A stretch of DNA of 64,000 nt from Candidatus Methanomethylophilaceae archaeon. GTDB lineage: Archaea > Thermoplasmatota > Thermoplasmata > Methanomassiliicoccales > Methanomethylophilaceae. Below the pieces are notes generated by a model. It saw only the letters and a program-made list of their open reading frames with translations, made no database searches and was not told the DNA's origin. This document shows, in pieces, positions 7,053 to 28,435 of the stretch; position 1 is the stretch's first letter, and every line of letters starts with the position of its first letter. Location: positions 1-64,000 of the forward strand of contig CALUOK010000013.1 in NCBI GenBank assembly GCA_944322255.1, written 5' to 3'. A program made the position numbers and the translations under genes.

Positions 7053-7085
7053 GATTCTCCTTAGAATGCAATGGTTTATTAATGG

Positions 7086-7114
7086 TTTCTCATTATTCCC
7101 GTGATAGTGAGAAT
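7086..7114. promoter_or_regulatory. Operator-like inverted repeat between divergent genes
   Basis: TTCTCA (7087-7092) and TGAGAA (7108-7113) form an inverted repeat with a 15-nt spacer in the 62-nt gap between two divergent genes. The half-sites match the arms of the tighter palindromes at 9584 and 19902. The wide spacing makes this a weak site. Confidence 0.3.
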
Positions 7115-7753
7115 ATGGAGGACAGAAACGACAGAACGATCGTGTTCCTGCCGCAAGGCGACGGCAGAGCCCTGGACAGCTTCATCAGGGATGTTCTCCT
7201 CCAGTACTCCGACTCCGACGTCCTGGTCTTCAGGTACGGCAAGAGGGACGGTACCGAGGAGGACATCGTGTCCCTGTTCGGCAACGGCGGAAGGGCCGCC
7301 GTGAGGTCCCTGTCCCCCGAGGGGCGCGACTTCATGTTCGAACTGAACGACGTTCTCAGCATGCCGCAGAAGACCCTGACCGTGGACATAACGTTCGCCA
7401 GCCCGTTCCATGCGGCTCAGGCGAACTACTTCGGGCTGAACGCCAGACTGGCGGTCTACTACTCCTTCAGGACTGAGACGGGCCCCAGCAGGAGACAGAT
7501 GAACCCGCACATGAAGAACTACGGGAAGCTGGACGGGGACTCCGTCACCCTGATCACGGCCATGGTCAACGGCTGCGGCACGGTGCTGGAGATGATGAAC
7601 GAGACCGGCTTCTCGGACAAGAAGGTCTACAGGAAGGTGCTGGACCTCTACAAGAAGGGTTACATCTCCTGCGACGACAGTTCCAAGACGAAGGTCTACA
7701 GCCTGACCCCGGACCAGGAGATGATGTTCATCAACACGTCCGAGATGGACTGA
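7115..7753 (+). CDS. CARF-like winged-helix protein
   Basis: About 212 residues beginning MEDRNDRTIVF. The N-terminal 120 residues alternate strands and helices in a Rossmann-like order, starting with a hydrophobic strand and ending in a strand-helix-strand that reads AQANYFGLNARLAVYYSF, as in CARF nucleotide-sensor domains. The C-terminal 75 residues look like a winged helix (TLITAMVNGCG, a recognition helix DKKVYRKVLDLYKKGYI, then a short wing). CARF-wHTH proteins such as Csa3 are regulators that bind cyclic oligonucleotides, but no CRISPR array is seen here. The assignment is by shape rather than signature motif. It is divergent from the pseudo-methylase operon. Confidence 0.5.
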   Translation: MEDRNDRTIVFLPQGDGRALDSFIRDVLLQYSDSDVLVFRYGKRDGTEEDIVSLFGNGGRAAVRSLSPEGRDFMFELNDVLSMPQKTLTVDITFASPFHAAQANYFGLNARLAVYYSFRTETGPSRRQMNPHMKNYGKLDGDSVTLITAMVNGCGTVLEMMNETGFSDKKVYRKVLDLYKKGYISCDDSSKTKVYSLTPDQEMMFINTSEMD

Positions 7754-7785: not shown

Positions 7786-8553
7786 TCAAAACGTTTGCTC
7801 CTGGTCCAGGGCTTCTCTGACCAGATCCATCACGGTCGCATCGACGATCCCGAAGGTCTCCCTGTCAGGCTCCCTGGATTCGTAGAGTGGCCTCAGCGCC
7901 TCGACACGGGACAGCGTCTCCGCGTCCAGCTCCATGAACCCGTCCAGGGTGTACCTCCCGGACTTGATCCCCAGCAGGAGCTCCCTCTCGGCGGGGGTCG
8001 CGGTTATCGCGGATCCGAAGTCCGTGAAGCCGTTCCCGGCGAACTTCTCCAGGACCAGCAGGGACCTGACAGCGTGCATGGCCTGCTTGGTGTCGTACCC
8101 GTACCTCTCCACCAGAGGCATCGTGGACTCAGTGCCCTTCTCCAGCCTGCTCATCTTCCCGGTGTGGATCCCCATGGTGGTCCTCCAGAACACCGGCAGG
8201 TTCATGGCCGCGATGCTGTCCCTCATCCTGACGATCCTGTTCATGTACGGAACCGCGAAGGTCTCCGGGACCCTCAGGTCCCTGGAGAACAGCACCTCCA
8301 TGAAGGACGGGTTGGACTTCCACAGCAGGTCGGGCACCTTCCTGACGTCGTGGACCACCACGTCGTCGGTCAGGGTTACGGACTGGGCGTGGTACGCCCT
8401 GCCCCGGTACAGGTCCTCGAACGTCGGCGCCACGAAGGCCATGTGGTCCTCGTCGCTGGATTCGGTCTCCAGACCGTAGTTGTGCGACCCGATCAGGGCC
8501 CACAGGACCACCTGCCTCCCGGAGATCTCGTCGGGCATCTCCATCGGCGACAC
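7786..8553 (-). CDS. RlaP-type DNA polymerase beta-fold nucleotidyltransferase
   Basis: A 255-residue protein with GSHNYG at residues 22-27 and SDED at 33-36, the GSx10DxD core of minimal nucleotidyltransferases. The extended form with a helical C-terminal domain matches the RlaP (COG3541) family, named for its association with RNA ligases in RNA-repair operons. The RNA ligase is indeed immediately upstream. The apparent start is a GTG embedded in the ligase frame with no clear ribosome binding site. It may be made as the C-terminal part of a ligase-RlaP fusion by frameshifting at a run of five G (8553-8557). Confidence 0.8.
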   Translation of the reverse strand: MSPMEMPDEISGRQVVLWALIGSHNYGLETESSDEDHMAFVAPTFEDLYRGRAYHAQSVTLTDDVVVHDVRKVPDLLWKSNPSFMEVLFSRDLRVPETFAVPYMNRIVRMRDSIAAMNLPVFWRTTMGIHTGKMSRLEKGTESTMPLVERYGYDTKQAMHAVRSLLVLEKFAGNGFTDFGSAITATPAERELLLGIKSGRYTLDGFMELDAETLSRVEALRPLYESREPDRETFGIVDATVMDLVREALDQEQTF

Positions 8554-9487
8554 CCCCGAACATCTCCGGCTTGGCCCTCTTCACCATGGTCTCCACGCAG
8601 CCCTTCAGCCTCCTGAAGTCGATGGTGGGGTTGCCGTTCTTCTTGACCGCGTCCCAGAGGCACTCGTCGAACACGCACTTCCAGACGGTGCCCAGCAGCC
8701 TGCCCGGATGCACGTACCCGCCGGTCTCCACGGCGATCTTGGCGTACTCCTTCTCCACCAGGCCCATTGTCACGGCGCTCTCGGCGATCCTCTGCTCCAC
8801 GGACCCGTCGGTCTCCGCCCTCCGGGAGAGGTTGAACTGCTTGGTCGCCCTGAACTTGGAGCTGAGCACCTTGGCCCACACCTCCTGCCCGAAGGGGTTC
8901 CTGTAGCCGTACCTCTTGACCACCACGCCCTCGCCGGCGGAGCCGTCCTCGACCCTGAAGCCGCTCTCGTTGTCGGCCAGGGCCTCCAGGTCCTCCTTGG
9001 TCGGGAAGTCGATCTCCACGATCTCCGGGATGTAGTCCACGCCGTAGGCGTCCAGCAGCCTGGAGTAGACGGAGTACGGCAGGTACGGGTCACCGGAGTG
9101 GTCGAGGGTCACCTCCCCGCCGTCCTCCGCGATCGTCGCGTGGAACTCGCCAGTGTCCGTCACCACATCGAAGACGAACAGCCTGTTCCACGTGTCCGGG
9201 GTGTAGTTCCTGATCGTGTGGGGGACCATCCACTCCCCGTAGAGCCTGAGCTGCGGATGGTCGGACAGGAGCCTGACGATGCCCTCGTTTCCGACCGCGA
9301 ACCTCGTCATCGGGTGGTTGCCGTCGACCTTCATGTTCCTGCTGGCGCACCTGATCTGCCCGTCCTCGACGAAGACGCTCCCGTTGGAGCCGTCGAGTTT
9401 CGGGAAGACATGGCAGCGGCCGGTTGTCAGTCCCGAGGCGTTGCTCGAATCCAGATGCTCTATGTGCTGATACCTGACGAATGTCAT
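8129..9487 (-). CDS. RNA ligase (PF09414-like), frameshifted 3' end
   Basis: Residues 1-310 are an ATP-dependent RNA ligase: nucleotidyl-lysine motif FPKLDGSNG at 28-36, motif III-like LYGEW at 82-86, motif IV EGVVVK at 186-191, motif V WAKVLSS at 204-210. Past residue about 310 the frame continues 420 nt over the RlaP gene as arginine-rich sequence typical of a wrong frame. Losing one G from the G5 run (8553-8557) would join ligase directly to RlaP. This is an indel, a sequencing error, or programmed frameshifting. The product would seal RNA breaks. AAGGAGG lies 8 nt before the ATG, and a TATA box and palindromic operator lie 80-120 nt upstream. Confidence 0.8.
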   Translation of the reverse strand: MTFVRYQHIEHLDSSNASGLTTGRCHVFPKLDGSNGSVFVEDGQIRCASRNMKVDGNHPMTRFAVGNEGIVRLLSDHPQLRLYGEWMVPHTIRNYTPDTWNRLFVFDVVTDTGEFHATIAEDGGEVTLDHSGDPYLPYSVYSRLLDAYGVDYIPEIVEIDFPTKEDLEALADNESGFRVEDGSAGEGVVVKRYGYRNPFGQEVWAKVLSSKFRATKQFNLSRRAETDGSVEQRIAESAVTMGLVEKEYAKIAVETGGYVHPGRLLGTVWKCVFDECLWDAVKKNGNPTIDFRRLKGCVETMVKRAKPEMFGGVADGDARRDLREAGGPVGPDRVAQLRSGDRIQRRGPHGLRGADVRGPVPGQGVPRPVRNPDRRRGGPRRQEGARPAVEVQPVLHGGAVLQGPEGPGDLRGSVHEQDRQDEGQHRGHEPAGVLEDHHGDPHREDEQAGEGH

Positions 9488-10277: not shown

Positions 10278-11105
10278 TCATTCTCTATGGCTGTTCCGCA
10301 CTTCTACAAGGAAACGTGGAGTGTCCCCCATCGTCCCATAGCCTTCGGATGCCTCCTCCAGCACGGAACCGTCCATCGGAATGAGAATCCTGGCGTTCTC
10401 CCCGGCGATGACGACACCTCCGACCGCCGGGATCGCCGAACCGCTGAAGGAGAAGCCGATGTGGTCCGCCGACGGATGGAACCAGACATCCAGCACCACG
10501 TCCGTCGGAAACTCGTCGCCAAGACGTTCCGACACCCTGAGCGACAGAGTGTCTGAGATCTCGAAACTGCTACGCTGGGACGTCCCGTCGACCGCCGAGA
10601 GGTCGCGCATGATCGCCAGCCTGGCGAGGCGGACGAGCCCGTAGCGGCACCAGTGGCCGGGACCCACGGGGTCGGACATGTTTTCCCCGTGACCGTCGCC
10701 GCCGTTGTACCAGATGGGCGCATCATCCTCGTCCTCGACCTCCATCGGCTCGCCGGGATCGTAGTTGAAGACCTCCGGGAGCATCGAGCGGGGGAACGGC
10801 CCGTCGTAGGGGAGATGGACCTGCGTCCTCCCTCCCCTGATGTCCAGGACCGATCCGAACCCCACCAGCTCCCTGAGCCCGCTGGTCTCGAAGGAGAAGC
10901 CGTTGTGCATGCGGAGCCCGAAGGACGGGGTCTCGAACACGTCCAGACAGTCGAAGTCTGCGATGAGCACGCAGCCCTCACCCAGCTCCAGCTCGAACCT
11001 GCGGACGCGGTCGACACCGTCGATGATCCCCTTGTCGCGCCATCCGGTCGCGTCCCTGCGGTACATGGCGCGGAGCACCATGGCCACCGTATCCATCGGG
11101 ATCAT
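10278..11105 (-). CDS. B-family paralogue (RDxTGW protein)
   Basis: A 275-residue protein beginning MIPMDTVAMV. It carries RRDATGW near residue 15 and, near the C-terminus, SGSAIPAVGGVVIAGENA followed by RILIP. Both are shared with the other B proteins of this array. The body is predicted to be mostly beta with few charged clusters, and there is no signal peptide or membrane segment. The start overlaps the stop of the preceding A gene as ATGA. Function is unknown. The start was set at the ATGA because the longer open frame upstream lies inside the A gene. Confidence 0.8.
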   Translation of the reverse strand: MIPMDTVAMVLRAMYRRDATGWRDKGIIDGVDRVRRFELELGEGCVLIADFDCLDVFETPSFGLRMHNGFSFETSGLRELVGFGSVLDIRGGRTQVHLPYDGPFPRSMLPEVFNYDPGEPMEVEDEDDAPIWYNGGDGHGENMSDPVGPGHWCRYGLVRLARLAIMRDLSAVDGTSQRSSFEISDTLSLRVSERLGDEFPTDVVLDVWFHPSADHIGFSFSGSAIPAVGGVVIAGENARILIPMDGSVLEEASEGYGTMGDTPRFLVEVRNSHRE

Positions 11106-12205
11106 CTCCCCAGCCCCCTGACGGAGTCCCTGGCGCTGTCGATGCATATCCTCAGGACGTCCTGGAGCTGGCGCCTGCTGACGGGCTCGCTCATGTGGCT
11201 CATCCTCCGGTTGACGGAGCTCCCGAAGCACAGCCCGGTGGGCTTGAACATGAACTCGGGGACGAACCGTCCATTCCCCGACAGGTTGCTCCACACCGGA
11301 TCCATCCGGAACACCTCGTTCTCGAAGCCCCCGCGACCGTTCCTGAGAGGGGAGAACAGCGTCCGGTTCCCCCATGTGTACGTCATGTCCTGGAGGACCG
11401 TCCACTCCGGGATGTCGCACATGTCGAACCCCCGGACCACCCCCATGTCGTCGACCTCCGGATACTCGTCCGGCCCGTAGTCGTCCGTGAGGAACCTGTG
11501 CCACATCTCGGATACGTCCTCGACCGCCAGACCGCGGGCTTGCTCCACATACTCCAGGGCCTTCGCCTCGTCCCTCTCCACGTACCTGCCGACGTAGTGC
11601 AGGATGGCCATGAACATGCTGGCCCTCCAGAACGTCTCGGCCGACCTCTCCATCAGGTCCAGCGCGACGTCGAGGCGTTCCACGTGGACCCCTTCGAATC
11701 CGGGGCGGAGGATCTCCCAGGCCTCGGTGAACATGGCCTTGGGGGAGCCGTTCGACAGGCAGGTCCCGACCCAATCGGAGTACCTGCCCATGTCCTGGTA
11801 CCGGGTCCAGCACCACATCAGGATGCCCTCCGCCACGGCGGGCTCCTCCCTGCCGATCCTGGTGACCGCCTCCTCCGGCTCGCCGCCGTTCCAGAAGACG
11901 CTGTGGAGGAAGTGCTCCTGATGAAACGAGAGTCCGGTCGGGCAGTCGAACCTCGGGTCGGAGAACAGCCGGCGGATCGACTCCCCGTCCCCCATGGCCG
12001 CGGCGTCCGACAGCTCCATCTCCGCCGTCTCGAGGTCCCCTTCGACGAGATGGAGATCGCACAGCCTCCTGCAGGCGAAGAGGTTGCCGTCGAGCTCCCA
12101 CAGCCTGCTCCTCAGCTCCTCCGTGACCTCGCCGTCCGAATGGGCGATGACGGCGTCGTACTCCTCCCTCATGCGCCGGAGGTCGGCCTCAGTCGCCATC
12201 TTCAT
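11102..12205 (-). CDS. A-family paralogue (Sel1-like repeats, FKPTG domain)
   Basis: About 367 residues beginning MKMATEADLRR, with GGAGG 8 nt before the ATG. The N-terminal two thirds are degenerate Sel1/TPR-like helical repeats, for example ALDLMERSAETFWRASMFM then VERDEAKALEYVEQA. The C-terminal domain has GGFENEVF, MFKPTGL and a closing helix CIDSARDSVRGLG that recur in every A protein of the array. It overlaps the upstream B gene by 17 nt and the downstream B gene by ATGA. Its 3' end is close at the nucleotide level to the A gene ending at 17486, a sign of recent duplication. Function is unknown. Confidence 0.8.
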   Translation of the reverse strand: MKMATEADLRRMREEYDAVIAHSDGEVTEELRSRLWELDGNLFACRRLCDLHLVEGDLETAEMELSDAAAMGDGESIRRLFSDPRFDCPTGLSFHQEHFLHSVFWNGGEPEEAVTRIGREEPAVAEGILMWCWTRYQDMGRYSDWVGTCLSNGSPKAMFTEAWEILRPGFEGVHVERLDVALDLMERSAETFWRASMFMAILHYVGRYVERDEAKALEYVEQARGLAVEDVSEMWHRFLTDDYGPDEYPEVDDMGVVRGFDMCDIPEWTVLQDMTYTWGNRTLFSPLRNGRGGFENEVFRMDPVWSNLSGNGRFVPEFMFKPTGLCFGSSVNRRMSHMSEPVSRRQLQDVLRICIDSARDSVRGLGR

Positions 12206-13085
12206 ACTCCCACCTCCAGTATGTGTCGACCCTGTCGAGGTTCGGCCCCTTGGGATCACGGACGACGAGCGGGAGCGTCACAGCTGCTCCGCGGTAGTCC
12301 CTGCACGGATGATCCGACAGGTAGTCCGGGGTCCAGGACGTTCCGGACGGATGCTTGTTCACCAGCGACCCCACCATGTCGTGGTCCACGGGGATGTTGA
12401 CCCACCCCTCCTCGGAGTAGAGGTCGAATGAATCTGAGGTCGCATCCACTGCTCCGCTGAAACGAAACTCGACGTCTTCCCCTTTGTGACGGACGGACAT
12501 GAACTCGAACTCGCCACACACCGGATGGCTGCTAGCCGCCACCGTCAGGTCGTTTCTGATGCTTACGCCGTTGTTCATCTCCTCGACCACATCGCGGTCC
12601 CGGAGGTAGGCGAATCTTATCGCCTTGGACATCCCCTCGCTGTCCCATGGCGGTACATCCACGCGCTCCCTCCTCTCGGCAATGAATCCGCCGTAACGCA
12701 GAGGGACGGTGCCACGCCCCGTATCCATCAGAGGCCTGGGATCCGCTGAGAGGAGCCTCTTGACCAGTCCGGTCACATCGTGATCCGCAGTGCGGAGGGT
12801 CACCGACGATGACTCCCCGGTGAACACCACGTTCCCCCAGCTCAGCGACACATCCTCCAGATCATGCACCGCGAAGCTGAACCCGATGTCCACATACACC
12901 CCGAACCTCAGATGAGACAGGGGGTCGAAGGAGTGCGCGGTACATCCCACGCGCACGCCGGGGCAGAGATCCAGAGTGAACTCAATCGCATGCCCGAAGT
13001 CATCCTTTCTCGACAGCATCCACCCTGTGAGATCCCTGCAGACGATGGCTCCAAGGAGATACTCCAGCTTCTGCTCCGAGATCAT
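12189..13085 (-). CDS. B-family paralogue (RDxTGW protein)
   Basis: A 298-residue protein starting MISEQKLEYL by ATGA overlap with the preceding A gene. CRDLTGW lies near residue 18. The C-terminal half has FRFSGAVDATSDSFDLY then WVNIPVD, an altered version of the conserved B C-terminal strand pair. It is one of the more divergent B copies. It ends inside the ribosome binding region and first codons of the next A gene, so four genes here form one continuous polycistron. Confidence 0.8.
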   Translation of the reverse strand: MISEQKLEYLLGAIVCRDLTGWMLSRKDDFGHAIEFTLDLCPGVRVGCTAHSFDPLSHLRFGVYVDIGFSFAVHDLEDVSLSWGNVVFTGESSSVTLRTADHDVTGLVKRLLSADPRPLMDTGRGTVPLRYGGFIAERRERVDVPPWDSEGMSKAIRFAYLRDRDVVEEMNNGVSIRNDLTVAASSHPVCGEFEFMSVRHKGEDVEFRFSGAVDATSDSFDLYSEEGWVNIPVDHDMVGSLVNKHPSGTSWTPDYLSDHPCRDYRGAAVTLPLVVRDPKGPNLDRVDTYWRWEYEDGD

Positions 13086-13747
13086 GGGACCATCCCCCTT
13101 ATGGTGGCGAACACGCTTTCGACGCACAGTCTGAGGACGTGGGAGAACCCCCTGGGCGTTATGTTCTGGTTGGAATGGCAGTCCCACTGCGCCTCCTCCT
13201 TCATCCATTCGTCTTCGGAGTCGACGGTCATCGTGACCCTGAGGCCGGTGGGCTTGAACACGAAGACCGTCGTGAAAAGTTCGGAATAGGGATCCTCCGG
13301 GTCCACGCGGGGCTCGATGACGAACGTGCCGTTCTCGAACCCTCCCGCCCGGCTCCCGAACCTGCTGTATGCGGAGTGCCCGTGTTTCGTCGCGGTGATG
13401 TCCTCCAGGAGATTCATCTCCATGGGGATCCAGGTCTCGACGTTCCCGAATGTGGGGACCCTTCCTGCGGCCTCCCTGTCCTCGGCTTCGGGATCCCATC
13501 TGACCACGTAGTTGAGCCAGTTCCTCCCTGTCTCGGTGCCGTTCATGAACCCCATCGCAGCGGCGACCTCCTCGTCGCTGTCGGCACAGACCATCATGAT
13601 CCTGCCCAGGCAGAGGCTGTGCCCCGGACTGTCCGGGGCCTTCTCCGCAATCGCCTCAAGCGGCTCCAGGATGGCGTCTCCGTAGTACGACGACGCGTCC
13701 GCCATGATGCTGCAGACCTTCTCCATGTATCCCATGTCAAGAGTCAT
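13082..13747 (-). CDS. A-family paralogue, short N-terminus
   Basis: Only 221 residues, against 370-480 for the other A proteins. Most of the Sel1-like repeat region is absent, but the C-terminal domain is intact: GGFENGTF, VFVFKPTGL and a final helix VLRLCVESVFATIRG. GAGGGG lies 5 nt before the ATG. It is the first gene of the A-B-A-B polycistron ending at 10278. The reduced repeat region may be a natural short form or a deletion. The conserved C-terminal domain is evidently the essential shared part. Confidence 0.8.
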   Translation of the reverse strand: MTLDMGYMEKVCSIMADASSYYGDAILEPLEAIAEKAPDSPGHSLCLGRIMMVCADSDEEVAAAMGFMNGTETGRNWLNYVVRWDPEAEDREAAGRVPTFGNVETWIPMEMNLLEDITATKHGHSAYSRFGSRAGGFENGTFVIEPRVDPEDPYSELFTTVFVFKPTGLRVTMTVDSEDEWMKEEAQWDCHSNQNITPRGFSHVLRLCVESVFATIRGMVP

Positions 13748-13967
13748 CGGAACCCCTCGCCTATGTCATCTGCGTCCTGTCTGCGGTTCCATGTTCTTCC
13801 TTCATTTTCACTCCATCAACTCACTCATTTCGTTTACACTGTCGAATATCGATTAAACAAAGGTTCAGCTCCTGGACGTTAACCGCCCGAACCAGCTGCG
13901 AACACGCGCGCCCAGTGTTTCCGGCTCACGACGTCCCCGATGCATGCATCCGCGGGAATCATGCGGA

Positions 13968-15428
13968 TCACGCTTCCACAGGTGTCGTGTCGTATTCAAG
14001 AAACAGCCCGGATTCCATGAAATACTCGAAGAAGCCTCTTGATTGGTGGACTTCCTTGTAGTCTGCCAGATTATCGTATGTTGGACTGTCTCCCGAACAC
14101 GGACTGCATCTGACATCGACATCCTCGTAACGCTGCCATCCCTCATGCTCACGATTGGGTATGGCGTCGACGACATCATCGATGCAGTTTCTCAGAATCC
14201 ATCTGATGTCTGACGTGGATAGCTCGTCCGATAATGGTATCAGTCCGTATCTGCTCCAAATAACATCCATTCCCAATGGCTTGAAATGAAGAACGCTTAC
14301 GGTGCTCCTCTCCGGTTTCCTACCATACATGAACAGATTGTCTTCGTAAACGTACCCGTTGGAATCATCACATCTCGCACCGTGTTTGATCAAGTCATCC
14401 AAAACCGTGCATTCCGGCACACCGGTGTTGCATCCGCTTTCATTACCCCTCGCCACTCCTGCCTCGGGGTATGCGAGATAGGCCATCCATGCGCGGGGCA
14501 GCCAACCCCCTGTCTGTATGCAGGCCTTCGCGAAATAGTAGATCGCATCTTCGATGCTTCTCTCGACTGAGATTCCTATGAAACTCATCCTTCCGAGCAT
14601 GATCGAACTGCTACTGCTGCCATGATCCGAGGAATACTCCAGACAGCGGACATCGCGTTCGGAGATTTCCGTGAGAGGGCATCCCCCATAGCAGATGTCA
14701 TCAGCTCTGAGAACCGAGGCCCTGGAGGATGTGTCCTTCAGACCGTATTCCAGGAATCTGGCATAGGCATCGTCATATCCGTCCTGACGTCTCATCCACT
14801 CTGCGACTATCCCTGCCGCATAAGGGTCCTCCGAAGCAAGCAGCTCTGCCTTCTCCAGGAACCCAGGGCAGACGGCAATGGCAGGACCTACCGCGTAGGC
14901 GAGCTCCGACCAGCATTCCGGATCGGAATACGGCGAGAGCCTGCGATCCGAAATGTTCCGTATGGCCGAATCCGTATCACCGCACATGATCGCATCCAGA
15001 AGATAACTGCGGGCGAGTCCGGGATCACCCGTGCTGGCATAGAACTCCGCCAATCCACGCAGGGCGAAATGGTTGTCCTCCCTCACGAGATCCCCGAGCG
15101 TTTCCAACGTCTTCTCGTTGAACCGCCCCCCGCAACCGGCTATCGCACTCCGATATTCCCTGTCCATGCGTTCCAATTCAGATTCGTCAGGAACATGGTA
15201 ATCATGGTGCGCGAATGGATTCAGATTCCAAACGGAGAACGTACCACACCAGGGAGACTTGGGCTCCGATTCATACCTCTCACAGTACTCGTCTATCTCT
15301 TTTGCAATATTACGATTCACTTTCACCTCCGATTCGCTGAGACGAGAGGCCTGTGCCCACTCGCCCCGCAACATCTGCATATCAGGGCCCGGGATGCCGA
15401 CGGATCGGCTTCCCGGACGCCAAGTCAT
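13968..15428 (-). CDS. A-family paralogue, long and divergent
   Basis: A 486-residue protein, the longest A copy, with an extra N-terminal 70 residues and an extra C-terminal 60 residues. Sel1-like repeats occupy about residues 75-300 (for example ALRGLAEFYASTGDPGLA and SIEDAIYYFAKACIQTG). The conserved domain follows with VPECTVLDDL, HFKPLGMDV and WILRNCIDDVVDAIP. The third-position GC content is lower than in neighbouring copies, suggesting a separate history. It starts 2 nt after the stop of the B-A fusion gene and has GGAG 9 nt before the ATG. It has no B partner downstream. Confidence 0.8.
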   Translation of the reverse strand: MTWRPGSRSVGIPGPDMQMLRGEWAQASRLSESEVKVNRNIAKEIDEYCERYESEPKSPWCGTFSVWNLNPFAHHDYHVPDESELERMDREYRSAIAGCGGRFNEKTLETLGDLVREDNHFALRGLAEFYASTGDPGLARSYLLDAIMCGDTDSAIRNISDRRLSPYSDPECWSELAYAVGPAIAVCPGFLEKAELLASEDPYAAGIVAEWMRRQDGYDDAYARFLEYGLKDTSSRASVLRADDICYGGCPLTEISERDVRCLEYSSDHGSSSSSIMLGRMSFIGISVERSIEDAIYYFAKACIQTGGWLPRAWMAYLAYPEAGVARGNESGCNTGVPECTVLDDLIKHGARCDDSNGYVYEDNLFMYGRKPERSTVSVLHFKPLGMDVIWSRYGLIPLSDELSTSDIRWILRNCIDDVVDAIPNREHEGWQRYEDVDVRCSPCSGDSPTYDNLADYKEVHQSRGFFEYFMESGLFLEYDTTPVEA

Positions 15429-15430
15429 CC

Positions 15431-16597
15431 TTAGTCACTCCTCTGGACGCCGGAGAGCACCTCGCACAGCGCCATCAGGTGCATGATCTCCCTGGGCGAC
15501 AGGTCCTGGTTCATCCACATGCTCCTGAACGGATGCTTGTACCATGTGACCTCGAACCCCGTGGGTTTGAACAGGAAGTTCGGCTTCAGGCATTCCGACT
15601 GCGACTCCACCGTCTCCGGATCGTCCCAGCAGTAGTAGCGGTTGGAGAAGACCTCGTTGTCCTCCTCGCTGTTGTTTGGACTCATGAGGCAGAGCGGCGA
15701 ACCCCACCAGATCTCGTATCTCTCGAATATGTCTGGGAACGGGTACTCGCGCTCGTCGCCCCTGTAACTGCGATCGACCCGCGTCGGATTCGTGGGTATC
15801 GGACGCGCATCATCGAGGCCGTCCAGCAGACCGTCCCCCACCGGATGCTCCGCGAGAAACATCCTAGTGGCATCCGCGCCCTTCCCGCACGCGAGGGACT
15901 CCTCCCTCACGACGTCCTCCGGGATCGGGATGCGGAGCGCCGAGCAGCCCAGGGTCAGCACGATGCAGTCGTGTCCGGGGATCGGGATGCCGTACATCGT
16001 AAAAGAGATCCCGCCATCATCGAAATCGGCGCGCATGACGATGTCAGACCAGTGCTCCCCGCCCAACAGACGGACGACCTCGAGGCTCACACCGAATCCG
16101 GCATCGAACCTCATCCCGGGTTCGATCGCGTCCAGAAGCGAGCCGTGGACCGCCTGGACCAGCCTTGAGATGTCTTCCGGTGCGGAGGGTTCAGCCGTCC
16201 CGACGGCGTGACAATCGGGCGAGATGCGGACGCTGCCGCACCTGGAACCCATGACTATCCCGTCGTGACCGACGGCGTCCATGTCCATGTCGACCAGAAG
16301 CGCCTCGAATCCGCGGACCATGTGCAGCCCGTAGGTGGACACCGGGCCCGGATCGTCGAAGAAGCGGTGCCAGTTGTCGTGAATCAGCAGACAGGCGTCC
16401 GGCGATATACCGAGCCTGTAGTCCTCGTTCTCGTACAGCGGTTCCATCTCCGATTCGTCCAGATGCCCGTCCCTCGAGCGCTGTATGATGCTGACCGCCT
16501 CTGCGAACGGCATGCACCCGTCAGGGTCATGGCGATCCCTCCAAGCGTCGATGCCCTCTTCTCCCATCCTGCGTCCTGTTCTCATGTACTCTCTCAT
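15431..16597 (-). CDS. B-A fusion protein
   Basis: About 388 residues beginning MREYMRTG, chosen because GGAGG lies 5 nt upstream; an ATG at 16609 is the alternative. The first 250 residues resemble B proteins: a GIPIPGHDCIVLTLG segment then ALRIPIP corresponds to the conserved B C-terminal strands. The last 100 residues are the A C-terminal domain, with FLFKPTGFEV and a closing helix MHLMALCEVLSG. The Sel1 repeats are absent. The order B then A is the reverse of the A-B gene order. The fusion suggests that the B protein and the A C-terminal domain work together. Confidence 0.75.
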   Translation of the reverse strand: MREYMRTGRRMGEEGIDAWRDRHDPDGCMPFAEAVSIIQRSRDGHLDESEMEPLYENEDYRLGISPDACLLIHDNWHRFFDDPGPVSTYGLHMVRGFEALLVDMDMDAVGHDGIVMGSRCGSVRISPDCHAVGTAEPSAPEDISRLVQAVHGSLLDAIEPGMRFDAGFGVSLEVVRLLGGEHWSDIVMRADFDDGGISFTMYGIPIPGHDCIVLTLGCSALRIPIPEDVVREESLACGKGADATRMFLAEHPVGDGLLDGLDDARPIPTNPTRVDRSYRGDEREYPFPDIFERYEIWWGSPLCLMSPNNSEEDNEVFSNRYYCWDDPETVESQSECLKPNFLFKPTGFEVTWYKHPFRSMWMNQDLSPREIMHLMALCEVLSGVQRSD

Positions 16598-16649
16598 CCG
16601 TTCCTCCATCTTGTGGGTCTTACCTCACTCTGCTCTCTCAAAAGCGGTT

Positions 16650-17489
16650 TCAATGGGCCGGCTCGTCCGAATCGGCCTCCCCAAGTATCGATTCGATCTC
16701 ACCGCGCCTGGGATCGACAGCGTCGTCGAACGACGACGCCGGGTGCCCGGAGAGGTACCTCGACGTGAAGTCGTTCCTCCAGCCTTCGACAGGGATGAAC
16801 GCCCTCGCGGAGTCCGATACGATCGCCACCCCTCCGGATGCCGGGATCAGGTTGCCGGAGATCCTGAGCGAGTACGGCCCGGGATCGTACCTGAACTCGA
16901 CAACCGCGTCGCAGTGGAACGGCGCGCGGATTGCGGTCCTCGGTCTGATGTGCAGGTTGTCGCACAACGGCACCGTCTCGTATGCGATGCCGCCGGTGAT
17001 CGCCATCCCGATGAGCGTCTGCAGGGCGTCGTCGTCGAACTCCAGGGGTTCCGGCGGCACATCGGGTATCCCGTACGGATCCAGACCCGGTTTCGCCCAG
17101 AAGGGCACCTCGAGCCCATCGGATTCCGGAGAGGGGTGTCCGCGGTCCTCGAGCATGATCTCACGAGCACGCCCCGCGTCCAGCGGAACCGACATCCTAA
17201 TGTCGACGTCGACGTCGTCGCAGACGAGAGATATCCCGAAGGACTCTGTGAAGGCCTCGAAGTCGGGATTCACATCCACCATCAGACCATTGCGGATCCT
17301 GATGCCGAAGGACGGTGACCACAGAGGGTCGCGGACGTCCAGGGCGCATAGGAGCTCCATTCCGTATCCGATGCGGAGACCGAAAGCAACGGTATCGTCC
17401 TCGTCCAACTCTGGGAGCCTCTCCCACCCTGTCATGTCGCGGTTCACGGATGCGCGCACCGCAGCCTCCAGGACCTCCGGAGGCATCAT
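16650..17489 (-). CDS. B-family paralogue (RDxTGW protein)
   Basis: A 279-residue protein with NRDMTGW near residue 17, an N-terminal beta-rich half (SFGIRIRNGLMVDV) and the conserved C-terminal pair GNLIPASGGVAIVSDSA then AFIPV. It starts at one of two adjacent ATGs, the first overlapping the stop of the upstream A gene as ATGA. It is a close relative of the B copy ending at 10278. There is no signal peptide or membrane segment. Function is unknown. Confidence 0.8.
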   Translation of the reverse strand: MMPPEVLEAAVRASVNRDMTGWERLPELDEDDTVAFGLRIGYGMELLCALDVRDPLWSPSFGIRIRNGLMVDVNPDFEAFTESFGISLVCDDVDVDIRMSVPLDAGRAREIMLEDRGHPSPESDGLEVPFWAKPGLDPYGIPDVPPEPLEFDDDALQTLIGMAITGGIAYETVPLCDNLHIRPRTAIRAPFHCDAVVEFRYDPGPYSLRISGNLIPASGGVAIVSDSARAFIPVEGWRNDFTSRYLSGHPASSFDDAVDPRRGEIESILGEADSDEPAH

Positions 17490-18646
17490 GCGCCCAACCC
17501 CCTTATGGAGTCCCTGGCGCTGTCAATGCACAGTGCCAGCAAGTGTCTGAATTCGTCCCGGGAGAGGTGCTCTGAGGTGTACGCCCCGCAGCAGTCCGAC
17601 AGCTCCGCGACGCGGTATCCTGTTGGCTTGAACAGAAGTGTGGGGGGCATGAACATCCCCGACACGTCACGCGGGACCGAGTCGGCCCACGGGCGGAATG
17701 CGAACGTGTCGTTCTCGAACGCCCCGAACATGCTGGACAGGGGCTGGTACAGGGTGCGCCCGTACCACATGGCGGTGATGTCCCTGAGGACCCCGATCTC
17801 CGGTATCCCGGAGGAGGACGGCGGACCGAACAGCTCACCCTCCTCTGGAGTATCGCACTCAGGACCACCTGACACATCGGCCATGTAGGACAGCCAGTCA
17901 CGGGGAGACCGATTCCCCGTCATGCGGCATGCGAGGATGATGTTGTCCAGGGCTTCGGACTCGTCCCGGTCCACGTACCTTCCTGTAAAGTGTATCTGTC
18001 CGAGCACCAGCCTGGGCCTCCAGAACCCCCTCGCGGCCGACTCCATCAGCCCCAGGGCGTCATCCAGATCCTCCACGTGCTCCCCCAGGAACCCTGGCTG
18101 GAGCATGTCAGAGGCCTTCGCATGCCTCGCCACCAGAGAGCCCCGACGGAGGCCTATGTTCAGGAAGCGGATGTAGTCGTCCTCGTACTCGATGCGGTTC
18201 CTGGCGCACAGGACTAGCACACCGCAGGCTTCCACGTCCTTCTCTGCCAGATCGACGGCCTCCTCTACGAAACCGTCACAGCAGGCCTCAGCCGTACGGA
18301 ACGCCTTACGCTGAACGTCCGAGCAGCCTGTGTCGTCGGAGAACCTCCCATCCGAGATCAGCCTCAGCGCCGATTCCGTGTCCCCCTCGCCGACCGCCCT
18401 CAGCAGGATGCGGCCTGCGTCGTCGACCCTTCCGCAGAGGAGACAGTGGTCCGCCATCCGGCGCATGGCCAGGACGTTCCCGGAGTCCCTCAGCAGGGCC
18501 AGGTTGCCCCACTGCTCCTCGGTGAACTCCCCATCGGCATCTTCGCAGCCCATGGCCAACCTGTAGTCGTGCTCCATGCCTTCGAGGTCGACGTGCCTCA
18601 CGCCGTCATCGTCCTCTCTGCAGTAGTTCCTCACCCGGATGTTCAT
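17486..18646 (-). CDS. A-family paralogue (Sel1-like repeats, FKPTG domain)
   Basis: A 386-residue protein beginning MNIRVRNYC. Sel1-like helices run from about residue 40 to 270, for example ALGLMESAARGFWRPRLVLG followed by GRYVDRDESEALDNI, which align with the A copy ending at 11102. The C-terminal domain has AFENDTF, LLFKPTGY and CIDSARDSIRGLG. The gene heads its own A-B pair. A promoter with TATA-like TGTTAATC and a near-match of the CAAACATTACAA element lies 35-60 nt upstream, giving a very short leader. Confidence 0.8.
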   Translation of the reverse strand: MNIRVRNYCREDDDGVRHVDLEGMEHDYRLAMGCEDADGEFTEEQWGNLALLRDSGNVLAMRRMADHCLLCGRVDDAGRILLRAVGEGDTESALRLISDGRFSDDTGCSDVQRKAFRTAEACCDGFVEEAVDLAEKDVEACGVLVLCARNRIEYEDDYIRFLNIGLRRGSLVARHAKASDMLQPGFLGEHVEDLDDALGLMESAARGFWRPRLVLGQIHFTGRYVDRDESEALDNIILACRMTGNRSPRDWLSYMADVSGGPECDTPEEGELFGPPSSSGIPEIGVLRDITAMWYGRTLYQPLSSMFGAFENDTFAFRPWADSVPRDVSGMFMPPTLLFKPTGYRVAELSDCCGAYTSEHLSRDEFRHLLALCIDSARDSIRGLGA

Positions 18647-18679
18647 CTCATCACCGTCTGTCCCATAAGCTTCCTCGAT

Positions 18680-18706
18680 AGATTAACATTTCATTGTTAT
18701 GTTTGT
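18680..18706 (-). promoter_or_regulatory. Promoter with CAAACATAACAA element
   Basis: On the minus strand CAAACATAACAA (plus coordinates 18694-18705) is one base different from the element before the Sel1 gene, and it is followed by the TATA-like TGTTAATC. AACAT-N9-ATGTT (18685-18703) has the same 19-bp layout as the inverted repeat at 4168-4186. Confidence 0.5.
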
Positions 18707-18710
18707 AATC

Positions 18711-19442
18711 TCAGTCATCCTCTGCAGAATCCCCACAGCCCTGCGGATGCCCCATGATGCAGGCCTGGAGCCTGCGAGCCGCACGGACGATCCATCGCGA
18801 CAATCCTCCGGTCGGGAGGCGGATCTCCACCGATGAGTCGAACTGGTCTATGATGACGGAACCCTCTCCTGGACACAGCAGACCCTTGAACTCCAGGAGC
18901 ATATGACCGTCATCGAACACGACCCTGGCGTTCGGCGGGTAGTCATCGTCATCCGGCTCGCCTCTGAACACCTCCACGGTCATCCCTCCTCCGAGGGGCA
19001 CGACCTCTGATTCTCCGGCGATGTCGGAACCGCAGTGCTCCGCAAGGGCCCTCAGCCTCCGCGCTGCTGCCCGGTCCCAGCCGCTTGAGTCCAGGTTGTC
19101 CTCCGAAGGCATGGGGGCGAGCTTCCCGGGATCCGACGGCGAGAGGTACATGATCGTCGTCCCCGACCTGTCCGCATAGCCGAAACCGGTCTCGAAGAGT
19201 TCCAGCTGGTGCATCCACGGACAGACCATGGCTGTGAACCCCTTCCCGACGACGGTAATCGCATCAAGTTCACCGGCGCCTTCGGACACATCGGCGGTCA
19301 CCGACATGCCGCGGTCGATGTACAGCACACATCCGAGGTTCTCGTAGTCCCATATCCTGTGCGTCACCGGGACCCATCCGGTCACGTCCCCGGAATCGTC
19401 GAAGTCCCTGAGCATCCTCAGATTGTCAGCAACGGTCCTCAT
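18711..19442 (-). CDS. B-family paralogue (GDVTGW variant)
   Basis: A 243-residue protein beginning MRTVADNLRM, with GAGGGG 5 nt before the ATG. It has GDVTGW near residue 18 and the conserved C-terminal pair (LLCPGEGSVIIDQFDS then VEIRLP). It is the shortest and most divergent B copy and has no A gene directly before it. It stops 65 nt before the next A gene, which has its own promoter. Function is unknown. Confidence 0.75.
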   Translation of the reverse strand: MRTVADNLRMLRDFDDSGDVTGWVPVTHRIWDYENLGCVLYIDRGMSVTADVSEGAGELDAITVVGKGFTAMVCPWMHQLELFETGFGYADRSGTTIMYLSPSDPGKLAPMPSEDNLDSSGWDRAAARRLRALAEHCGSDIAGESEVVPLGGGMTVEVFRGEPDDDDYPPNARVVFDDGHMLLEFKGLLCPGEGSVIIDQFDSSVEIRLPTGGLSRWIVRAARRLQACIMGHPQGCGDSAEDD

Positions 19443-19553
19443 CCGCACCCCTCCCCTGGCGTGCCGCCCTCGGGACGATGTCCGTTCTCCTGTAGTGGTC
19501 CCTCATGTCCTCTCCGTCGTTATGTCCGTGCGTCCGTACGGGGGATGTGCCCC

Positions 19554-19859
19554 TCACACCCTCCCTCCCTGCGGGATCCTGCGCAGCAGGGACACCGGCC
19601 CGTAGACCGAGATCTCCCCCGAGCCGTATCCGGTGTCGGACTCCGAGACGATGTGCCCCATAGCCGCCGCGATGACGCCATGGAGCATGTCCCTGTCCCG
19701 GACCCCAACGGATTCTGTGATGCTTATGTGTGCCTCGGTGTCCTCGTACTCGTATCTGGCCGTCGCCCTGGGTGCCGGTATGCGCCCGTCTACTATCCTC
19801 GCGAGGAAGTACGGGATGCGGTCGTAGTCTGACAGGAAGATCGTGTTGTACGGCGTCAT
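19554..19859 (-). CDS. Hypothetical protein at head of A/B array
   Basis: A 101-residue protein beginning MTPYNTIFLSDY. No family is recognised. It contains an AHISITESVGVRDRDMLHG segment and is probably alpha/beta. It is the first gene behind a TATA-like TTTAAA (19884-19889) and a palindromic operator 43 nt upstream that is shared with the RNA ligase promoter. It is therefore a good candidate for the regulator or a sensor of the array, but this is inferred from position only. Confidence 0.65.
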   Translation of the reverse strand: MTPYNTIFLSDYDRIPYFLARIVDGRIPAPRATARYEYEDTEAHISITESVGVRDRDMLHGVIAAAMGHIVSESDTGYGSGEISVYGPVSLLRRIPQGGRV

Positions 19860-19901
19860 GAGAGGTGTTTCGATGAGCTGCGGTTTAAATGTTGTTATTG
19901 T

Positions 19902-19921
19902 ATTCTCATATTGATGAGAAT
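19902..19921. promoter_or_regulatory. Second copy of the ATTCTCAT palindromic operator
   Basis: ATTCTCAT and ATGAGAAT form a perfect 8-bp inverted repeat with a 4-nt spacer, the same arms and spacing as the operator at 9584-9607. TATA-like TTTAAA motifs flank it on both sides (19884-19889 and 19920-19925). The two sites bracket the whole A/B array, so one regulator probably controls both ends. Confidence 0.6.
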
Positions 19922-20083
19922 TTAAACGGTTGAATTGATCTATATATGGTACTCATTGATTGAAGACAAACCTCAACATATGACAGAAAATCGGACACAA
20001 GCCCGCCGGCAGATTGAATACTAAGCTATGTCATCCTGTGGACAATAGACGATCCATTCGGGATGCGTTGATTAGGTCCTGCC

Positions 20084-23689: not shown

Positions 23690-24652
23690 TCAACTATCTA
23701 GATAAAGTGTTCCCATCCAAATTGATAGAGATTCCATCGTCAAGGGAGGACACATTGTAAGATTTGAATCATACTCGGCATTGGTTACTCCAACGGGACG
23801 CCCATCGCTGAAACGAGGTATCTCTTCAGCAGGAATGAATCTGATATTATTCTCAAGATAGGGTTCATCATACACAATTTGCTCAAGTTCTTCATCAGAA
23901 TAGCAGCTCACTCTCTTGTCTATGAGGGTCAATCTCTTGTAATCATCTTTATAAATCTCCCTACCAAAACGGACCATGTCCATCATGGAAATGCCACAGT
24001 CGACTTTACGTAGAAGAATAGAGATCACAAGAATCTCATATTCCTCAAACAAGAGTTGCTCATGCCTGAAATGGTGTCTGCGTTCACTGCTCATAGTGGA
24101 CTTGACTTCCATACGCTTATTACTTGACATATAGAAATCGAATTTCCTACGATCATCTTTCTGCCAATATGAAGAAACATCATATCCAAGATTCTTAAGA
24201 TGATAGATTGCATACAACTCAGAGAACAGTCCATTAATCTCAGACTCACTCGCTCTAGCAGAATCGCGAAACAATGCAATCATAGATGAAAAGAACTCCA
24301 TAAGCGACTTGGTACTACAATCCCCTGAGGAGAATGCTAAGCATAATCTAACGAATGATTGCCTTTCTGAATCCACATTACTGGTGCATTCCAATATATT
24401 AGAGACTGCCTCAAACAGAACACCGTCTTTGTTGAAATGACAGTTACGACCCAGTTTGAGAATGAGTTTAGAAGTACTCGGACCAGAATGTTCTGATCTG
24501 GCCTTGGAAGGCACTACGAAAAAAAGATGTCCTTCACGATTTTTTCCGAAATATGTACCTTTATCCTCATCTACAGACACTAGCGAGATGAACTCGCCAT
24601 CTGCAGGAATTTCTAAGTTTGACAGCACCTCTAGGATATGCTCAGTTTCCAT
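23690..24652 (-). CDS. DUF4420 PD-(D/E)XK nuclease-like protein
   Basis: A 320-residue protein beginning METEHILEVL. GLFSELYAI at 141-149 and FDF...MEVKS at 171-185 give the E, D and ExK residues of a PD-(D/E)XK fold, as in DUF4420 proteins. It is the last gene of a four-gene operon and overlaps the Z1 gene by 11 nt. In known arrangements DUF4420, Z1, GHKL ATPase and a DNA methylase travel together as a restriction-like system, and this protein would be the nuclease. The catalytic residues look intact. Confidence 0.75.
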   Translation of the reverse strand: METEHILEVLSNLEIPADGEFISLVSVDEDKGTYFGKNREGHLFFVVPSKARSEHSGPSTSKLILKLGRNCHFNKDGVLFEAVSNILECTSNVDSERQSFVRLCLAFSSGDCSTKSLMEFFSSMIALFRDSARASESEINGLFSELYAIYHLKNLGYDVSSYWQKDDRRKFDFYMSSNKRMEVKSTMSSERRHHFRHEQLLFEEYEILVISILLRKVDCGISMMDMVRFGREIYKDDYKRLTLIDKRVSCYSDEELEQIVYDEPYLENNIRFIPAEEIPRFSDGRPVGVTNAEYDSNLTMCPPLTMESLSIWMGTLYLDS

Positions 24653-26843
24653 CAAGGTCACCCGCACGAATGTGAATGTGCTGCTCTTCAAAACTCTCCA
24701 ATACACAAGCAGGGAAACGGATTGCCACAGCTGTGGTTACTGGATATTCGATACTATTGTCAGATTTTTTCGGTCTCAGGTAATGTATTTGGACCTTTAC
24801 GTTCCGATAGTTCCCCACTTCCCCTACAAATCCTTTGTCTCCTGGGTATACTTCAGATGATCCGGACATCAACGCTTTTATTTTATTTTCTGTCTTCTCG
24901 TCAATACTACGAGCCTGAGGCTTATCTTTTCTCACCCAAAAAACATCACACAACACCTGTTCTCCGGAATAATTCAACAACGTCTTCAAAATATTGAGAC
25001 CCTTATGAGTGAATCCCTCAGTCTCTGGAAGGTTGAGTCTGTTTAATAGTTCGGAGATTACCTGCATGAATGGAAGATCATAGGCAACATAATGCTTGAT
25101 TGTCCCCCAATTCACATAATCAGTATGTTTTTTTTCACAATAATCATTAGCAAGACGGACATTCTCTTCCGATTGCTTTTGATCCAGGACCACAACATTC
25201 TGAATGATCCAATCGAATTCGTCGAGTTTCTCCGAACGAGCAACATTGGTCCTAGTGAAATTCAACTTGTTCGAAGCCAGAACCATAATACGAGGAATCT
25301 CTTTGAAACCATACCCCTCATTTAACCACTGGGAGATATGATTCCAGAACTCATCCTCGTGTTCAAGGATACTAGCATAATCGTTGGCTATCTGTTTTGT
25401 GGTGAATACACGACATACATCTAGATGTTTCCTACGATATCCAAGCCAACGTGCCCTTTGTTCTGTCGTATCTACTGTGGTCTTCTTTTGAGCTCTACGG
25501 GTCATGTATGTTATGGAGAGTCCATCAATAGTAATGCCGCGCTGGAGTTTGTTACCTCCAACGAATATGTTCAAATTGTAGTATTGCTGCAGATTGCTGT
25601 CATCCACATCTCCGTTACAGATCAGTATTTTACGATTGCATCTTTTGAATGCACTCCATATGTATGGTTTGAGTTCTTCAAAATTAGGTGCATTATTGCT
25701 TGTTGTTTTGAGGTCAGAATATGCTTCTCTGAACAAAATATCAAGTTTCTGATATGAGTCGTCAGGAATACTCTCCTCTTCCATGGAAACAAGATCTTTC
25801 CAGTTTTCGAATAGAGTTTTTACAGCGTTTGCAACCTTGGTGTGAGAATCTTTGGAACTGCTAGTATGGATGAGCATTGCATGCTTGTCCGCATCACCAC
25901 GGTAATTCCTGATTGCAGCACCTACGAAGAACATGGCAAATGCTCTGCGGAATGATTCCGGAAAACCCGAGGTTAAATCCTCCATTATTTCAGAATCCCT
26001 ATCACTTATTTCACGATAGTACCGATCCATATTGGTGCCATGAAACACGGACAACCCGCAGTAACCATCTCCAGGTTGAACAAGAACCCCGAATTCTGGA
26101 GACAGTCTGTCTCCATTTCTGATTAGGAAATTAGCCTGAGGAGTTGCGGTGACTGTGATAAACGCACTCTTACAAGGAGATTCTATCAGATTGACTATGC
26201 TCTCGTATGTGGAAGAGAAAGCCTTATTGATCTTCTTGAATGCATTGGTGTTGAGAGACGCTTCATCTCCCTCATCATCAATAATAAGCACAGGACCATT
26301 CTCAGGATTGTAACTCTTCAAAGCTTGAGAAACGACCTCTATGTTATTGGCTCTCTTTAGAACAACCAAAACGACTTTTTTCTTAAAACGGGCCTGATCA
26401 TTGAGGAATTCTGAATTGACATTGAATGAGTCCGGATTCTCTCTCTTGGCACCGATTGCAATCACCAGCGGATTGGGCTTTTCCCTATCCTTGACAAGAT
26501 ACTCCTCGATACGAACCTTGTTCTGAGTAACCAGATTACCCTTGGTTCCTCCGAGAATAACCACGACGTTGTATTCATTATCTAATGCAAGAGCCGTTAG
26601 TCCTATGAAATTGGAGGTCTTCCCACTCTGGACCTTCCCAATCATAATTCCGACGGAATGAGTTCCATCAGGACTGCTAGAATTAGGACATTGAGATAGA
26701 ATCTCGAATCCATTCGAAATGATGCTATCAATGGCCTGTTCAGGAAAATGGCGACGCTGCAAACTTTGTCTGAACACATTGACATGTTCACCATCGATTT
26801 TGACAGTACCACGTTCAGGGCCATCGATAGACATACTAATCAT
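24642..26843 (-). CDS. Z1-domain P-loop ATPase
   Basis: A 733-residue protein with Walker A GKVQSGKT at residues 69-76 and Walker B LIIDDEGDEAS at about 186-196, then a long region with GGNKLQRGITIDGLSITYMT, typical of Z1-domain proteins. This conserved arginine-containing segment is helicase-like. It starts by ATGA overlap with the GHKL gene and ends in the start of the DUF4420 gene. Z1 ATPases are thought to be the motor of MORC/GHKL-associated restriction systems (described in comparative-genomic work by Iyer and Aravind). Biochemical function is not established here. Confidence 0.85.
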   Translation of the reverse strand: MISMSIDGPERGTVKIDGEHVNVFRQSLQRRHFPEQAIDSIISNGFEILSQCPNSSSPDGTHSVGIMIGKVQSGKTSNFIGLTALALDNEYNVVVILGGTKGNLVTQNKVRIEEYLVKDREKPNPLVIAIGAKRENPDSFNVNSEFLNDQARFKKKVVLVVLKRANNIEVVSQALKSYNPENGPVLIIDDEGDEASLNTNAFKKINKAFSSTYESIVNLIESPCKSAFITVTATPQANFLIRNGDRLSPEFGVLVQPGDGYCGLSVFHGTNMDRYYREISDRDSEIMEDLTSGFPESFRRAFAMFFVGAAIRNYRGDADKHAMLIHTSSSKDSHTKVANAVKTLFENWKDLVSMEEESIPDDSYQKLDILFREAYSDLKTTSNNAPNFEELKPYIWSAFKRCNRKILICNGDVDDSNLQQYYNLNIFVGGNKLQRGITIDGLSITYMTRRAQKKTTVDTTEQRARWLGYRRKHLDVCRVFTTKQIANDYASILEHEDEFWNHISQWLNEGYGFKEIPRIMVLASNKLNFTRTNVARSEKLDEFDWIIQNVVVLDQKQSEENVRLANDYCEKKHTDYVNWGTIKHYVAYDLPFMQVISELLNRLNLPETEGFTHKGLNILKTLLNYSGEQVLCDVFWVRKDKPQARSIDEKTENKIKALMSGSSEVYPGDKGFVGEVGNYRNVKVQIHYLRPKKSDNSIEYPVTTAVAIRFPACVLESFEEQHIHIRAGDLDGN

Positions 26844-28435
26844 TCATACACCCTCTCTATCGGACTATAAGATATCTTGTTTAGACTCTCCCTTATAGAA
26901 CTGGCCGATATTGAAGCACTCAAGGTGTCCAACTCGACCATTTTCTCCGATAATGCAAGATAGATTACAAACTCCACTATGATGGACTTGTCGATAGAGT
27001 CATATTTTACCACCAAGGGATGGTTGATATTAATTGTGATCTTGAATTCATTTCCCTTAGTAGACTTAGCAAATAGGAATTCTGAGGGGAATTCCCTTCT
27101 GCTCACACTGAAACTGTACCAATCTTCACCACATTTAACTCTATATGAATAAGAACTAGAATCTGTATTTGAAACCTTCTTCTCGACCTCTGATGATTCG
27201 ATAGAAGAACCAACCTCCACAGGAATGGTTTTCACTCCAGATTGTGTCGAATCTCCACTTGTATCCTTAGAAGAGGCAGCAAATGTACCTTCTCCACTCT
27301 CATCCCTCTCTTTGACAGGAGATGTCGTTGGATGTTCTTCATTTAGTCTCGGATGACCTGATGGTGTATTTTTCGGCTTCCCAGCATCCGTGGGTTTCTT
27401 TGGAACACGATAGTTTTTACACTGTTCGATGATTTCTGAAATCCTCTCCTTAACTCCATAGATAAACAGAGATTCCAATTCACCTTCCCAATCAAATTTA
27501 TCCTTAGTCTGGACAACAGGCCAATCATCGAGATCGAACTCACCATAAAGCCTCTGGCTCTGGAATGAATTTCCAAGTTCGAAAATCTCGACAGGCTTAT
27601 ATGTTTCCCTGAAACCTCCGAACACAGCTCTATTGTTACGAAAAAGAATGAACCCAGCGTGCTTCTGACTTCCTTTGTCACGTATGGCAACAAATCCCGA
27701 AACGTGATAACTGCGACTCTTGTATTCAACATTGAAATCGAGCTGCTGTTTCCAGACTTTTTTGCGACCATTTTCATCTAATGTCTCTAGAAAATTTGGA
27801 CGCTCATATTCAACCACCTCGTCATTATACATGATTGTAACAAGATCGTTCTGAATATCACGACAGTATGCTTTACCAAGCGCCTGACGAAGCGCATTCA
27901 ATGATTTCTTTTGAGGGCAATCCTTGTTGAGTTTCTCTATTGTGATTACAGTGTAGTGAGTATTACGAGGAACCGTTCTGACGTGTGCGGGAATCTTTTC
28001 TGGTGCATATCTTTCGAGTTCATCTACATCAATAGTCGTAGAGTATTCAGCGTCTGAACCCATCCGGGTTGTACAAACAGTCCATCTAGACCCGAACCAT
28101 GTGGCAGCGGTCTTAAGACCCATACCATACTCGTTACGTGATCTCTGGCTAGGTTTGCTGTTGAGAATCACGGCCCTCTTGAAATCCTCTAGTTCCATTC
28201 CGAAACAGTTGTCCTTTACGGTAATGATACCATTGACTGGATCATGGTTAATTTCAATTACACAACCAGAAAAATCTGGATCCGTCATGAGCTCCTCCCT
28301 GTGATCGAAGAAACTCTGAGTGGAATTGTCGATGAACTCAGAGTAAGCGCTGGCCTGCTCATAATTGAGTTTTCTGAAAACTGCATATACATCAGTCTTA
28401 GGCGCTATATTGATCTCGGTTGTTATCTCGCTCAT
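26840..28435 (-). CDS. GHKL (MORC/Hsp90-like) ATPase
   Basis: A 531-residue protein with the Bergerat ATP-binding motifs: EFIDN at 33-37 (N box), DNCFGM at 75-80 (G1) and GMGLKTAA near 104-111 (G2). After the ATPase and transducer-like parts, residues about 350-420 are a low-complexity serine- and threonine-rich linker, followed by a small C-terminal domain. GHKL ATPases of this kind act as ATP-gated DNA clamps in restriction-like systems and are related to the eukaryotic MORC family. It overlaps the methylase gene by 38 nt and the Z1 gene by ATGA. Confidence 0.85.
   Translation of the reverse strand: MSEITTEINIAPKTDVYAVFRKLNYEQASAYSEFIDNSTQSFFDHREELMTDPDFSGCVIEINHDPVNGIITVKDNCFGMELEDFKRAVILNSKPSQRSRNEYGMGLKTAATWFGSRWTVCTTRMGSDAEYSTTIDVDELERYAPEKIPAHVRTVPRNTHYTVITIEKLNKDCPQKKSLNALRQALGKAYCRDIQNDLVTIMYNDEVVEYERPNFLETLDENGRKKVWKQQLDFNVEYKSRSYHVSGFVAIRDKGSQKHAGFILFRNNRAVFGGFRETYKPVEIFELGNSFQSQRLYGEFDLDDWPVVQTKDKFDWEGELESLFIYGVKERISEIIEQCKNYRVPKKPTDAGKPKNTPSGHPRLNEEHPTTSPVKERDESGEGTFAASSKDTSGDSTQSGVKTIPVEVGSSIESSEVEKKVSNTDSSSYSYRVKCGEDWYSFSVSRREFPSEFLFAKSTKGNEFKITININHPLVVKYDSIDKSIIVEFVIYLALSEKMVELDTLSASISASSIRESLNKISYSPIERVYE

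Follow-up and report, generated by a model that had tools for sequence, protein, structure and literature searches.

The window, by which we mean the whole stretch of 64,000 nucleotides analyzed here, comes from a gut-type archaeon and carries, from position 19859 down to 10278, a tandem array of genes encoding two kinds of protein, A and B. All genes of the array lie on the minus strand, in the single orientation given by an earlier sequence-only reading of this DNA, and follow one another in the order X, B0, A4-B4, a fusion of a B-like part with an FKPTG domain, A3, A2-B2 and A1-B1. In window coordinates, the features are:

19860 to 20083, no strand: intergenic region, AT-rich (41% GC) with TATA-like boxes, lying between the array and the divergent mcrB
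19554 to 19859, minus strand: X, a small ORF of 101 aa, first in the putative operon; its membership of the array is uncertain
18711 to 19448, minus strand: B0, 245 aa, B-like, weakly supported
17486 to 18646, minus strand: A4, Sel1-like solenoid (model helices 21-258) and C-terminal FKPTG domain
16650 to 17489, minus strand: B4, ATGA overlap with A4
15431 to 16609, minus strand: fusion of an N-terminal B-like part and a canonical FKPTG domain, with a phrog_13421 match at residues 334-371
13968 to 15428, minus strand: A3, Sel1-like solenoid, FKPLG domain and C-terminal extension, with no B of its own
13082 to 13747, minus strand: A2, a short A, mainly the C-terminal domain, the N-terminal solenoid being absent
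12189 to 13085, minus strand: B2, ATGA overlap with A2
11102 to 12205, minus strand: A1, Sel1-like solenoid and FKPTG domain; its start codon lies within the 3' end of B2
10278 to 11105, minus strand: B1, ATGA overlap with A1

Distances between these genes range from overlaps up to 105 bp, with the exception of a single 220-bp gap between A3 and A2. The intergenic region is the only AT-rich, TATA-like stretch upstream of the array genes; we take it as a candidate array promoter, and it is thus plausible that the array is read as one long transcript. No Rfam RNA was found in the array region, and X has no relative in the Pfam, NCBIfam, PADLOC and PHROGs scans. Three A-B pairs (A4-B4, A2-B2 and A1-B1) are indeed joined by ATGA, and together with the 4-nt overlaps in two related genomes described below, this gives them the co-translated two-gene organization that toxin-antitoxin modules also have.

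The four A proteins are all significant paralogs, as had been proposed. In pairwise phmmer comparisons, A4 matches A1 at E=2e-55, A3 at 6e-30, A2 at 5e-17 and the tail of the fusion protein at 7e-7, and all of its relatives in this genome are found within the window. The same is true of B, for which every copy in the genome lies in the window, with B4 matching B1 at E=1e-19 and B2 matching B4 at E=6e-7. The claim that some copies have near-identical 3' ends was overstated, since the best nucleotide match, at the A/B junction of A1/B1 and A4/B4, reaches 84% over 49 nt, and A1-A3 are only 31-36% identical to A4 as proteins. Judged by this divergence, the array copies are old, apart from the junction of A1-B1 and A4-B4. 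These two pairs are each other's closest relatives in the array for A and B alike and have the junction stretch in common, which indicates that A and B were duplicated as a unit. Strict pairing is nevertheless not universal, as A3 stands without a B and B0 without an A.

The N-terminal part of the A proteins resembles the Sel1-like repeat proteins (Pfam PF08238; for example LceB, SEL1L and Hcp) in both profile and fold. Profile searches match solved Sel1 proteins with a best E of 3e-14, the matches covering the solenoid and not the C-terminal domain; the AlphaFold model (mean pLDDT 81) has Sel1 proteins as its best PDB matches in Foldseek, and a BFVD fold search returns mostly Sel1/TPR solenoids. 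Single A sequences score 16.4-18 bits against the Pfam Sel1 model, below its curated cut-off of 30.7. Scans of all ten proteins against Pfam, NCBIfam, PADLOC and PHROGs gave weak Sel1 matches and one real PHROG match; matches to DUF6928, InhA-MAM and Ble-MBL were well below their cut-offs and are put down to chance. No defense model of PADLOC 2.0, NCBIfam or Pfam matches A or B (PADLOC: none at E<=1), nor does any toxin family in Pfam, NCBIfam, PADLOC or PHROGs. Beyond the generic Sel1 solenoid, these searches place neither protein in a well-known metabolic or structural family. As far as profiles and predicted folds can tell, A combines a helical solenoid of Sel1 type with a phage-type FKPTG domain.

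It was for this C-terminal domain that the sequence-only reading, wrongly, recognized no family. The fusion protein matches phrog_13421 in the PHROGs scan (E=6.7e-5), a profile of the archaeal A domain aligns with the phage profile at 99.7% probability (hhalign, E=1.9e-25), and the phage-family profile in turn finds the fusion (1e-18), A1 (3e-6), A4 (2e-5) and A2 (2e-4). By these profile comparisons the FKPTG domain is a member of PHROG 13421, an uncharacterized family of bacteriophage proteins that stand alone, in which gp66 of Mycobacterium phage Optimus, a protein of Synechococcus phage S-SRM01 and JMA_43570 of a Jeotgalibacillus plasmid have the same domain (FENDxF...W...PNFxFKPTGxxxxWYK...R...C). 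With tblastn, the domain was found in cyanophages, in 32 mycobacteriophage records and on the Jeotgalibacillus plasmid (4e-11), and scans with degenerate patterns gave 75 contigs of IMG/VR and 11 of genomes, the latter including that of a related archaeon, G061, discussed below. Nocardia and Paenibacillus genomes also carry proteins of the family (loci L071-L176). Most of the phage proteins have 110-310 aa, with frequent extra Cys/His-rich inserts that are suggestive of metal binding; no Pfam model matches the four that were tested, and no recurrent partner gene accompanies the stand-alone phage genes beyond closely related phages.

Whereas the phage proteins stand alone, the domain in the array has either a Sel1 solenoid or a B-like part as its fusion partner and, again unlike the phage proteins, is paired with B, multiplied and, in A1-A4, degenerate. 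The fusion copy is the most canonical, retaining 14 of 17 phage-conserved residues and being about 49% identical to JMA_43570 over the domain; G061 retains 12 of 17, and A1-A4 only 6-11. The conserved W-Y-K-Y and R are mostly kept in the fusion and in G061 and degraded in A1-A4, which have lost many of the phage-conserved residues while keeping the core. Such a pattern of residue loss would fit a captured domain that has been re-used for binding and no longer serves its original role.

No family could be found for B, in agreement with the earlier reading: searches of Pfam, NCBIfam, PADLOC, PHROGs, IMG/VR, phage and plasmid collections return no relative outside the genus. Three of the four B proteins proposed earlier (B1, B2 and B4) are solid, and B0 is weak, scoring 0.4-6 bits depending on the profile (E 0.35-20) where the best of 160 shuffled sequences reaches 3 bits; it is only probably a member of the family. 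A profile of B1, B2 and B4 scores 28 bits against the B of G061, 18 against the N-terminus of the fusion and 13 against the B of a second relative, G053, with all 160 shuffled sequences at 3 bits or less. The gene at 15431-16609, which had not been singled out before, is thus a natural fusion in which a B-like part is joined directly to an FKPTG domain, with no solenoid between them. The AlphaFold model of B (pLDDT 45) is too poor to interpret and was left out of the fold search. An internal duplication hinted at by this low-confidence model was rejected, hhalign of the two halves giving a probability of only 2.6%, and mixed B/FKPTG alignments, in which B was misaligned onto the FKPTG domain, were discarded.

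Convincing matches to A and B are confined to four of 147 genomes of the order, namely this one and three of the same genus (G053, G061 and G077), and searching 390 genomes of the phylum with the FKPTG domain gave no further convincing match. Most of the 25 initial matches to A in the family were Sel1-only and were dropped once the profile was limited to the FKPTG domain; an FKPTG match in G008, in a resolvase region, and another in G365 were rejected or left as chance, and a B match in the phosphate-uptake region of G090 was rejected. In contrast to the array, each of the three relatives has a single pair. That of G053 has a 4-nt overlap; that of G061 (in the public record a Methanomassiliicoccaceae MAG, Tb.RUG.172) has an ATGA overlap and one in-frame TAG per gene; and that of G077 is a decaying pair or remnant, with a frameshifted A and in-frame TAGs in B. 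In G061, the TAG interrupts otherwise full-length A and B genes (L039, positions 2-1695 of the contig). G061 and G069 also share a small ORF whose N-terminal part is B-like (about 20 bits with the B profile), and a TAG occupies the same position of it in both genomes (L063, 1228-1728; L060, 1231-1674). These codons would fit translation of TAG as an amino acid (pyrrolysine) in this genus rather than gene decay.

The array is surrounded by genes of known or likely defense systems: Shango SngB and SngC, a protein with a type I specificity-like part, RlaP with an RNA ligase, a McrB/McrC-like pair, which we presume to be such from gene order, with no family match behind the name, and a group comprising Z1, a DUF4420 nuclease, a HATPase (MutL) and a C5 methyltransferase. 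This last group (23690-29693) forms one low-GC block (about 41-43%) resembling a Mza-type or Z1-type restriction system and is evidently of other origin than its surroundings of roughly 62% GC. The RlaP nucleotidyltransferase and RNA ligase genes, adjacent to each other at 7786-9487 just downstream of the array, make up an RNA-repair pair. A CARF-like/HTH regulator gene lies near the array (7082-7753, plus strand), and a related one (BLASTP E=2e-6) is directly divergent from the G061 pair (L039, 1716-2612); none was seen beside the pairs of G053 or G077, and a regulatory link to A-B is possible.

In the relatives, the G077 pair is adjoined by Gabija GajA/GajB and the G053 pair by an AbiLi-like ATPase, and both pairs lie between a UvrD-like helicase gene and a DUF1846 gene. 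The helicase gene is also present in the window; unlike in G053 and G077, the array is on its far side. Read from their sequences, the DUF1846 flanks of G050, G051, G055 and G069 hold other, largely housekeeping-type genes and no A or B. Since the G061 pair sits on a 4-kb contig and the association comes down to essentially one syntenic island in three species, it is suggestive and does not amount to several independent observations. A-B thus shares its genomic setting with Shango, McrBC, Gabija and AbiLi-like systems, although none of the models for these systems matches A or B.

Tandem arrays of immunity or recognition paralogs are typically amplified, diverged and of one orientation, a likeness that the A/B array shares. 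It differs from them in that the repeated unit consists of two genes and includes a phage-type domain, and in that we recognized no polymorphic toxin in the window that could act as a partner. The earlier proposal of an amplified and diversified array of conflict type is borne out in its strong paralogy, in the recurrence of the pair as a unit in relatives and in the defense-island setting, and an immunity function is putative. The co-translated pairs, the natural B-like/FKPTG fusion and the joint duplication suggest that A and B act together, and the phage-type domain and the defense island point to a role in virus-host conflict. We tentatively prefer, as a quite possible explanation, that A-B is an accessory anti-virus module of two proteins, with recognition assigned to the solenoid and signaling or interference to the FKPTG/B part. 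On this reading, an accessory defense island of this Methanomassiliicoccales archaeon carries in A and B what would be a cytosolic module serving in conflicts with viruses or other mobile elements. B and the FKPTG domain would bind each other, the solenoid would recognize a variable viral or host protein, the FKPTG/B part would be the signaling or interfering end, and amplification of the copies would supply different specificities. Complex formation between A and B, recognition and antiviral protection are all, in our reading, putative.

Other explanations deserve consideration. The pairs could be tandemly multiplied toxin-antitoxin or abortive-infection modules, with A as the effector through its FKPTG domain and B as the neutralizing partner, as the co-translated genes with their 4-nt overlaps, the sparse distribution, the island setting and the multiplication would lead one to expect. 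However, toxin families give no match, A3 lacks a neighboring B of its own, one chain fuses B-like and FKPTG parts, several A copies have lost the conserved aromatic and basic residues of the phage domain where an active site should be preserved, and the stand-alone phage genes have no recurrent partner; we regard this explanation as unlikely.

Equally, a mobile element or a decayed provirus could have brought in the array as cargo, with the array genes serving host take-over or counter-defense and the phage domain marking a viral origin. The domain is mainly found in phages, the presence of A-B is patchy and the G077 copy is decaying. Yet the IMG/VR, phage and plasmid collections yield the FKPTG domain only, with no relative of whole A or whole B; in reading the ORFs around the array we noticed no virion, integrase or replication genes, and three species have the same island, so that this origin appears doubtful.

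That A and B are ordinary lineage-specific scaffold or regulatory proteins, amplified with no link to viruses, also seems rather improbable. Sel1 solenoids are general protein-binding scaffolds and the defense role of A-B is our own interpretation, but A-B is confined to accessory island DNA, is missing from most relatives and carries a phage-type domain. Finally, we consider it very unlikely that capture of the phage domain on a Sel1 scaffold gave rise to an amplified set of decoy or dominant-negative proteins that depend on B as an obligate partner and would jam or sense the viral complexes formed by the free phage protein and so provide immunity from integrated viral mimics.

The FKPTG family and Sel1 solenoids were known already; their combination with B, the pairing and the amplification in an archaeal defense island, matched by no family model, appear to be new. 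Within a limited check of the literature, we know of no description of a Sel1-FKPTG and B module. To our knowledge, virus-host conflict in Methanomassiliicoccales has been little studied, and the array links an uncharacterized but common phage protein family to a multiplied module of an archaeal defense island, so that each side may help to reveal the function of the other.
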